This document shows, in pieces, positions 6,297 to 32,474 of a stretch of 34,760 nt of DNA; positions within the stretch are counted from its first letter, which is position 1; each line of letters begins with the position of its first letter. The translations under genes were made by a program, and so were the position numbers. A model generated the notes under the pieces. It ran no database searches. It saw only the letters and a list, made by a program, of their open reading frames with translations, and was not told the DNA's origin. Source of the DNA: Deltaproteobacteria bacterium (GTDB lineage: Bacteria > Desulfobacterota > Desulfarculia > Adiutricales > Adiutricaceae); contig JAISZC010000196.1 in NCBI GenBank assembly GCA_031269485.1, positions 1-34,760 of the forward strand, given 5' to 3'.

Positions 6297-6422
6297 TCAG
6301 TAGCGCGGCGTTCTGACGTGGACGCGATCGAGTTCGGCGATGATTTGGTTGGAGACGGCCTCTTCGGGCTTTTCCTGCTGGCTCTCGCCGGCGGCTTTCT
6401 TTTCCTCTGGTTTGGCGCTCAT
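6297..6422 (-). CDS. Small ORF in the acs operon, 41 residues, unknown function
   Basis: I do not recognise this protein. It is too short for the supplied ORF track. An ATG with AAGGAG 8 nt upstream opens a 41-codon frame ending in TGA between acsD and cooS on the same strand. The product starts MSAKPEEKKAAGESQQEKPE and ends in a predicted helix with IIAELDRVHVRTPRY. It is highly charged with a Lys/Glu/Gln-rich, probably disordered N-terminal half, and has no cysteine, signal peptide or membrane segment. Codons are G/C-ending like the neighbours, which favours real coding. Position suggests an accessory or assembly microprotein of CODH/ACS, but that is inference; it could also be a leader peptide coupling translation to cooS. 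Confidence 0.6.
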   Translation of the reverse strand: MSAKPEEKKAAGESQQEKPEEAVSNQIIAELDRVHVRTPRY

Positions 6423-30629: not shown

Positions 30630-30902
30630 CCTGAACAAACCGCCTTCGACGGCGTCAAGCGAGCCACGGCTTTCGCCGCGTGTTTAGGCTTCGTCGGGAG
30701 AATTAGGCGGCTCGACGCCCGATGGTCTCAAAAAAACTCCGCCCGACGCCTTAATCTTAACACACCGGGGCGAACTCGACCACTTGAGGGCTGACCGCGG
30801 CCCGACGGCCGACGCCTTGGAACGCACCCGGTCCTCATGCTCCCGCCCTTCCGGCGGGCGAGATCAACAAGCATCATCAACAAGCATCATCAAGGAGCTG
30901 AA
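30630..30902. other. Divergent region upstream of folD
   Basis: No gene and no clear promoter. It contains a cccgcc / ggcggg hairpin (30842-30858) and a 13-bp tandem repeat immediately before the folD ribosome-binding site. Confidence 0.4.
30863..30893 (+). repeat. 13-bp tandem repeat abutting the folD ribosome-binding site
   Basis: The unit atcaacaagcatc occurs twice (30863-30875, 30876-30888), followed by a partial third copy atcaa that runs into AAGGAG (30892-30897). Copy-number change would alter the leader just before the Shine-Dalgarno. Confidence 0.9.
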
Positions 30903-31760
30903 ATGACGGCGCAAATCATCAAGGGACTGCCCGTGGCCAACGCCATCCGCGAAGAAATAATCCCGAAGGTCAAAGAGCTCGTCGCCAAGGGCGTCCAGCC
31001 CAAGCTGGCCGTGGTTCTGGCCGGCGGCGACGACGCTTCCAGGGTCTACGCCCAATCCAAGGAAAAGGTCGGCGACAAGCTGGGCATCAAGGTGGAGATC
31101 CACACCCGCCCGGACGACGTGCCGGAGGCCGATCTGCTCAAGCTCATCGACGACCTCAACGCCGACCCCAAGGTCCACGGCATCCTCGTCGAGCTGCCGC
31201 TGCCCAAGCACATAAAAAAAGAGCTGGTCATGAACCGCCTCGACCCCAAAAAGGACGTCGACGGCGTGCATCCTGTCAACCGAGGCTACCTGCTGGGCGG
31301 ACAGGAGCACCTGGCTCTGGTGCCGGCCACGCCCTTGTCGTGCATCGAGCTCATCCAGCGCAGCGGCGTCGAGCTCAAGGGCCGCCGAGTGGCCCTGGTC
31401 GGCCGAGGCGACACCGTCGGCCGGCCCTTGGCTAGCCTGCTGATCAAGCGCGACGCCACCATCACCGTCTGCCACACCAAGACGGTCGACATAGGCTCCA
31501 TCACCAAGGCCGCCGAAATCGTGGTGGCCGCGGCCGGCTCCCCCGGCTTGGTCAAGGCCTCCATGCTGTCCCCCGGCCAAATCGTCATCGACGCCGGCAT
31601 CAACCAGCTGCCCGACAACTCCATCACCGGCGACGTCGAGCCCGCGGCGGCCGAGGTCGTGGCCTTCCTGACGCCGGTGCCCGGCGGCGTGGGCTCGCTG
31701 ACCACCAGCATCATCATGTCCAATCTGCTCAAGGCCGTCCAGCTGCAGGGCCTGGCCTGA
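30903..31760 (+). CDS. folD: FolD, methylenetetrahydrofolate dehydrogenase / methenyltetrahydrofolate cyclohydrolase
   Basis: This 285-residue bifunctional enzyme interconverts formyl-, methenyl- and methylene-tetrahydrofolate in the methyl branch of the Wood-Ljungdahl pathway and in biosynthesis. The catalytic YxxxK is Y49-K53 (VYAQSK), the substrate region is ILVELPLPKHI, KDVDGVHPVN is present, and the Rossmann domain has VGRGDTVGRPLASLL. The end PVPGGVGSLTTSIIMSN is diagnostic. I chose the ATG at 30903, which has AAGGAG 5 nt upstream; the track start adds 22 residues of repeat translation. fchA follows after 75 nt and the pair is closed by a terminator. Confidence 0.97.
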   Translation: MTAQIIKGLPVANAIREEIIPKVKELVAKGVQPKLAVVLAGGDDASRVYAQSKEKVGDKLGIKVEIHTRPDDVPEADLLKLIDDLNADPKVHGILVELPLPKHIKKELVMNRLDPKKDVDGVHPVNRGYLLGGQEHLALVPATPLSCIELIQRSGVELKGRRVALVGRGDTVGRPLASLLIKRDATITVCHTKTVDIGSITKAAEIVVAAAGSPGLVKASMLSPGQIVIDAGINQLPDNSITGDVEPAAAEVVAFLTPVPGGVGSLTTSIIMSNLLKAVQLQGLA

Positions 31761-31835
31761 CCTTTTTCCGGCCGCCCCGCCGTCCCGCCGGCGGCGGAGC
31801 GGCCCGGCGCCGGCCGGCGCCCGAAAGGCTCCAAA

Positions 31836-32474
31836 ATGTCATCACACACCGTCTCCTACGACATGAGCATCAACGATTTCCTCAAGGTGGCCGCCTCCAG
31901 CGCCCACGTCCCCGGCGGCGGCAACGTCTCGGCCGTGGTCGCCGCCTTGGGCGCCTCCATGGGCGCCATGGTGGCCAGCCTGACCAAGGGCAAGAAAGGC
32001 TACGAGGAGCATCAGGAGGCCAACGAGGCCATCTTGGCGGCCTTCATGGCGGGCATTGAGGATCTCAAGGCCATGACCATCGCCGACATCGAGGCCTTCG
32101 ACGCCTACATGGCCACCTTCAAGCTGCCCAAGGACACCGACGACCAGAAAAAGGCCCGGGGCGAGGCCATCCAGGCCGCCGGCCAGAAGGCCACCTTGGC
32201 CCCGCTCAACGTCTGCCGCAAGTGCCTGGACCTGATGAAGCAAGCCGCCAAGCTGGCCCCCTTCGGCAACAAGGGCGCCATCAGCGACTGCGGCGTGTCG
32301 GCCATCATCCTGGAGGCGGCCCTCAGGGCGGCCATGCTCTCGGTCGACATCAACCTCCCCAGCCTCAAGGATCAAGCCTTCGTGGAGAAGGTCAAGGCCG
32401 AAAGAGCCCTTTTGTTCACCGAGGCCGAGGAGCTCAAAGTCGGCATCCTGCACCACATGAGGGCCCGCTGGTAG
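31836..32474 (+). CDS. fchA: FchA, cyclodeaminase/cyclohydrolase family protein (methenyltetrahydrofolate cyclohydrolase)
   Basis: This 212-residue helical protein of the FTCD-C family is known as formiminotetrahydrofolate cyclodeaminase or, in acetogens and anaerobes, methenyl-THF cyclohydrolase. Typical features are SSAHVPGGGNVSAVVAALGASMGAMVASLT at the N-terminus and NKGAISDCGVSAIILEAALRAAMLSVDINL near the end. Beside folD its likely role is one-carbon THF chemistry; FolD already carries a cyclohydrolase activity, so FchA may add capacity or use formimino-THF. GAAAGG precedes the ATG. Confidence 0.92.
   Translation: MSSHTVSYDMSINDFLKVAASSAHVPGGGNVSAVVAALGASMGAMVASLTKGKKGYEEHQEANEAILAAFMAGIEDLKAMTIADIEAFDAYMATFKLPKDTDDQKKARGEAIQAAGQKATLAPLNVCRKCLDLMKQAAKLAPFGNKGAISDCGVSAIILEAALRAAMLSVDINLPSLKDQAFVEKVKAERALLFTEAEELKVGILHHMRARW

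Follow-up and report, generated by a model that had tools for sequence, protein, structure and literature searches.

A small gene between acsD and cooS in Adiutricaceae encodes a free-standing variant of the AcsD C-terminal tip

The encounter of CFeSP with ACS for methyl transfer is structurally unseen. The methanogenic ACS has a flexible C-terminal extension of ~75 aa, of unknown function, that is thought to be important when ACS shuttles between CODH and CFeSP, and no ACS-CFeSP structure existed at the date of that report (PMC11474084). The proteins considered here likewise have a flexible extension on a component of CODH/ACS, but on AcsD, the CFeSP small subunit, rather than on ACS. The CFeSP small-subunit structures 4djd, 2h9a, 4c1n, and 9fzy have the AcsD core fold in common, as judged by sequence match; the solved chains, of 309 to 323 aa, match residues 1-312 of the 524-aa AcsD of locus L118, and the arm and tip of that protein are absent from them. 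The family models stop short of the tip as well: the Pfam match on AcsD covers the core only, and NCBIfam NF003377 (PRK04452.1-3, acetyl-CoA decarbonylase/synthase subunit delta, 432 positions) spans residues 1-429 of the L118 protein, which takes in the core and some of the arm. The arm, the tip, and the small gene described below all went unmentioned in the papers that we found, in a literature search conducted largely outside the subscription journals.

Genome contigs were scanned for AcsD with an alignment of the AcsD core (A2). In Desulfobacterales and their relatives, AcsD has a C-terminal arm of ~200 aa in which an A/P-rich stretch is followed by a charged, helix-like stretch, and the tip of the arm ends in "...LDKxxxxLDRIHRRx." The fused motif was detected by HMM in 52 of the 62 loci of this set (L102-L163). 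Armed AcsD proteins of this kind, with a long low-complexity arm and a terminal motif of ~20 residues, are also present in some Adiutricaceae.

The window, by which we mean the whole 34,760-nt stretch analyzed (contig JAISZC010000196.1), contains a CODH/ACS operon that lies entirely on the minus strand. Gene identities were assigned by Pfam and NCBIfam, and the order is acsD (7763-6705; PF03599, NF003377), a small ORF (6422-6297), cooS/acsA, encoding the CODH catalytic subunit (~6175-4160; TIGR01702), acsB, encoding acetyl-CoA synthase (4081-1865; NF040764), and acsC, encoding the CFeSP large subunit (1703-255 as listed; NF003195). The true start of acsC is probably downstream of the listed one, and that of acsD may also be downstream of the listed ATG, homologues beginning near residue 23. 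The PF03599/NF003377 match of this acsD is limited to 1-321 of 432, and its product has no C-terminal arm; it is the single acsD found in the genome, which is incomplete. The end of acsD and the small ORF are separated by 282 nt, and the two share a reading frame, but the DNA between them has no linker-like reading. The window thus resembles the loci of armed Desulfobacterota AcsD in the position of the tip relative to cooS, and it differs in that the tip, covalently attached there, is here a separate gene beside an armless AcsD. About 23 kb from acsD, on the plus strand at 30837-32474, a folD-like gene is followed by a cyclodeaminase-like gene (both assigned by eye), which would belong to the methyl branch of the same pathway.

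The small ORF encodes a protein of 41 aa, MSAKPEEKKAAGESQQEKPEEAVSNQIIAELDRVHVRTPRY, followed by a TGA stop. The first-pass annotation had described it as a clean ATG frame in operon orientation between acsD and cooS, with AAGGAG 8 nt upstream, and this description is correct; the Shine-Dalgarno (SD) sequence lies at 6436-6431 on the minus strand and is conserved in relatives. The protein is, as also described there, highly charged, with 15 of its 41 residues charged by our count by eye. Residues 1-20 (6422-6363) form a variable, K/E/A/P-rich segment, which differs in both length and sequence among homologues and has Met1 as its sole invariant residue in the family alignment (A1). Residues 21-41 (6362-6300), EAVSNQIIAELDRVHVRTPRY, form the conserved C-terminal motif, given for the family as VxNxIIxELDRVHVRxPRY; it is predicted to be an amphipathic helix, a helix being modeled by AlphaFold2 (AF2) in homologues, and is, by A1 and hhalign comparisons, the part common to AcsD tails. 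R33, V34, H35, and R37 are invariant in A1, and the near-invariant residues of the tip can be written L-x-R-[VI]-H-x-R. Searches of the ORF against Pfam and NCBIfam gave no match, and neither the protein nor its tip has detectable similarity to PDB sequences.

A homologue of the small gene is present, at the same position and in the same frame, in 29 of the 37 genomes of the Adiutricaceae, a family that the record titles place, on our reading of the names, among termite-gut Deltaproteobacteria and Candidatus Adiutrix. The eight genomes that lack it are of two kinds: in G014, G017, G028, and G033 acsD is undetectable, and in G002, G029, G035, and G036 it is cut by the end of a contig (the locus of G035 is probably L089). 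The search with A1 also reached relatives from two further families within the order, and a search of the nearest 60 genomes found a match in 30. The matches inspected sit between acsD and cooS; the small gene adjoins cooS and is nearly always flanked by acsD on its other side. Over 395 genomes of the phylum, matches to the family HMM were confined to the family itself, and a broader motif alignment reached 37.

The first-pass annotation had named two outcomes that would speak against a real gene, namely, no conserved frame in relatives or a dN/dS near 1. We find instead a conserved frame under purifying selection, with a dN/dS of 0.04-0.15 over the last 22 codons, calculated within four genera; the two shifted frames gave 1.1 and 2.4 over all pairs, and dS is saturated between genera. 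Furthermore, an SD match of at least 4 nt precedes all 21 of the stand-alone starts checked, against a background of 9%. The small ORF is therefore a real, conserved coding gene, as had been proposed. That it is a chance ORF or a decaying remnant of an AcsD arm, as its sharing a frame with acsD might suggest, is scarcely credible given the dN/dS, the conserved SD, its retention throughout the family, and the intervening DNA, which does not read as a linker.

In eight relatives the motif is found at the extreme C terminus of AcsD, to which it is joined by a low-complexity linker of 125-275 aa. Fusion at the acs locus is seen in seven of the 29 family genomes (loci L004, L007, L009, L011, L012, L021, and L023); in these the linker is repetitive and A/P/K/E-rich, and the frame stops at the motif. 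Nearly all of the relatives are metagenome-assembled genomes, in which repetitive linkers are liable to misassembly. One genome (G021) has in addition an orphan acsD with the same fused tail (L096); neither cooS nor acsB lies in the 13 kb examined there. As judged from sequence, the identity of the stand-alone motif with the AcsD-fused motif inside the family is beyond doubt. On the CooS tree, a quick tree with many weakly supported forks, at least seven changes between the fused and stand-alone states are required within the family. Both forms, fused and free, also occur together in other genomes of the same taxonomic class, namely, G040 and the Desulfarculus-like genomes (L062, L064, and L067), in the latter of which the tip is divergent and reads RLRGDG.

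Several loci show further variation in the number of AcsD copies and tips. Tandem acsD genes are found in five Adiutricaceae loci (L086, L087, L089, L090, and L101), typically with one bare copy and one long-armed copy, and L101 (G015) has two AcsDs and two linkers within a single 955-codon frame. In a Desulfarculaceae-like genome (G055; L074:1501-3972), the AcsD tail is ~500 aa long and has two copies of an RWSLR-type tip; such an AcsD would be multivalent.

Five of the fused genes have kept a start codon and an SD at the position of the stand-alone start: L004 (aggagg), L007 (gagg), and L009, L011, and L012 (aaggag in each). In L004 and L009 no other in-frame start has an SD of at least 5 nt; L011 and L012 each have three such SDs, the internal one included; and in L007 the internal SD is only 4 nt. 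Because start codon and SD are retained, these sequences suggest that the free peptide may also be produced from fused genes by internal initiation. The carboxysome scaffold CcmM provides a precedent, in which dual products are made from one gene by internal initiation. A fused acsD would be like it in giving, from one gene, a full-length linker protein and a short C-terminal form, the latter predicted here; no sequence relation between CcmM and the AcsD tip is claimed.

The small protein has at its extreme C terminus the tip motif hhxxhL[DN]R[IV]H[RKV]R. When the window family was compared with Desulfobacterales AcsD tails by hhalign, the score was 95.5-96% over residues 21-41, and the controls scored 1.4% (reversed) and at most 0.3% (column shuffled). 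An HMM built from Desulfobacterales tails alone placed the window ORF at E=2 among 760 window ORFs, which is not significant by itself. Over the family, the same HMM ranked motif ORFs as 15 of its top 20 among 2349 ORFs, and the reversed HMM gave 0; since the ORFs so ranked are related, their p-values cannot be treated as independent. The Desulfobacterales tails were not retrieved with the family HMM. Homology to these tails is well supported because of the profile comparison together with position and the intermediates in f2 and f3 genomes, and not by single-sequence scores. The Desulfobacterales-type locus L157 has a separate 42-aa tip gene beside a fused one, suggesting that free tips originated on more than one occasion.

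The identity of the small protein as the AcsD tip is well supported, and we regard the small gene as a new free-standing variant of that tip: the window protein consists of the motif and a short charged lead, encoded by its own gene beside cooS. What the tip does is less firmly grounded. We infer that it is a docking tip that binds the CODH/ACS core, a reading that we consider somewhat more probable than not. The motif would insert as an amphipathic helix into a site on the core. In the fused state it would keep the corrinoid protein tethered close to the A-cluster. The free peptide, expressed from its own gene or, probably, initiated inside a fused one, would fill that site but tether nothing, serving there as a small subunit that is structural or sets occupancy. 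Since the only acsD found in the window genome is armless, the conserved job there would lie in the motif itself and not in a tether, and since a free peptide cannot tether, its function requires the idea of occupancy. The first-pass annotation had suggested a structural or assembly role in CODH/ACS; a structural role is indeed the most likely one, but the identity of the protein with the AcsD tip had been missed.

The distribution of the motif agrees with a role of this kind. In the loci read, acsD or cooS is adjacent to the motif, and across 12 genomes the matches that clearly exceed chance are without exception copies at acs loci; because of this, the motif is, as far as such searches can tell, private to the CODH/ACS complex. 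A general sorting, metabolon, or compartment tag was also considered and is ruled out by the same observation. Fusion links the motif with acsD, and its position links it with cooS-acsB. In genome G026, a second copy of the small gene is the first gene of a cooS-acsB unit (L077), and the 6 kb upstream contain no acsD. Upstream of that unit (5886-10423 of L077, comprising tip gene, cooS, and acsB) lies a LysR-like gene, recognized by eye, on the opposite strand. Docking was modeled by AF2 through natural in-frame read-through, with CooS and AcsB as the partners: the L091 read-through of small protein and CooS gave a helix with a pLDDT of ~40 and no confident docking, and the L123 read-through of AcsD tail and AcsB gave a model that was poor overall (pTM 0.46).

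A tip conserved on a long AcsD arm across Desulfobacterales, and also encoded as a peptide in its own right, suggests that bacterial CODH/ACS has a system for tethering or docking. Such a system would help to explain how CFeSP is retained near the enzyme in sulfate reducers and gut acetogens, other acetogens having been described with a standalone CFeSP, and in Desulfobacterota the counterpart could be an AcsD with an arm. More tentatively, and as a possibility that we hold to be rather doubtful as a whole, an arm and a complex-private docking tip may hold the corrinoid protein on CODH/ACS in Desulfobacterota, with occupancy tuned by free tip from its own gene or an internal acsD start, and Adiutricaceae may have switched repeatedly among tethered, mixed, and untethered CFeSP. 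The tip is a short peptide with few near-invariant residues and is amenable to test.

The motif might instead bind CFeSP itself, on its AcsD or its AcsC subunit, where it could form a lid or stabilizing helix, with the free peptide doing likewise in trans and neither form contacting CODH/ACS. This is in keeping with the motif being most often a covalent part of AcsD and with the fused tail of the orphan acsD in G021, but a linker of 125-275 aa far exceeds what binding in cis would need, and the small gene that heads the acsD-less cooS-acsB unit of G026 also argues against it; we consider it unlikely. Less likely still is a small protein that helps CODH/ACS to mature or assemble, acting in metal insertion or subunit assembly and fused to AcsD only incidentally in some lineages. 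The CODH/ACS maturation factors CooC, CooT, CooJ, and AcsF are P-loop ATPases or Cys/His-rich nickel-binding proteins. The 41-aa protein is small, adjoins cooS, and has a His and two Arg residues that are invariant, but the window protein has no Cys, none is conserved in the family, and there is almost none in the aligned rows of A1. The one conserved His and the lack of a match to any maturation family agree with the earlier statement that it is not a known CODH maturation factor, and its permanent fusion to AcsD in many genomes better fits a structural part than such a factor.

The first-pass annotation had also offered translational coupling to cooS. An ORF directly upstream of cooS in the same operon, with no promoter-like site found between the two, could in principle be a leader peptide or coupling ORF that controls cooS. 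Coupling is unsupported, however, because the gap to cooS is variable (97-747 nt in stand-alone loci), overlap is absent, and what is conserved is the amino acid sequence rather than length or spacing. The small ORF thus lacks the fixed short spacing or overlap, and the attenuator, of such elements: the sole terminator-like match lies on the other strand, at shuffle level, i.e., the number expected by chance. With the fusion to AcsD in relatives, this makes a leader or coupling function very improbable.

Locus L159 is on a contig titled Woesearchaeota that carries a Desulfobacterota-type acs locus with an arm, and the contig is probably mis-binned. The AcsD arm is shortened in L129 (1000-1188) and L138, and in L129 a tip-like remnant, QASKMLGRLNRMQKRK, follows just after; the short arms could reflect loss or an assembly collapse of the repetitive linker. 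In five other loci (L120, L130, L144, L151, and L162), the arm ends in a degenerate basic tip (KxKKIRR, KLKRGRR) rather than LDRIHRR, perhaps the sign of a lineage in which the dock has changed.
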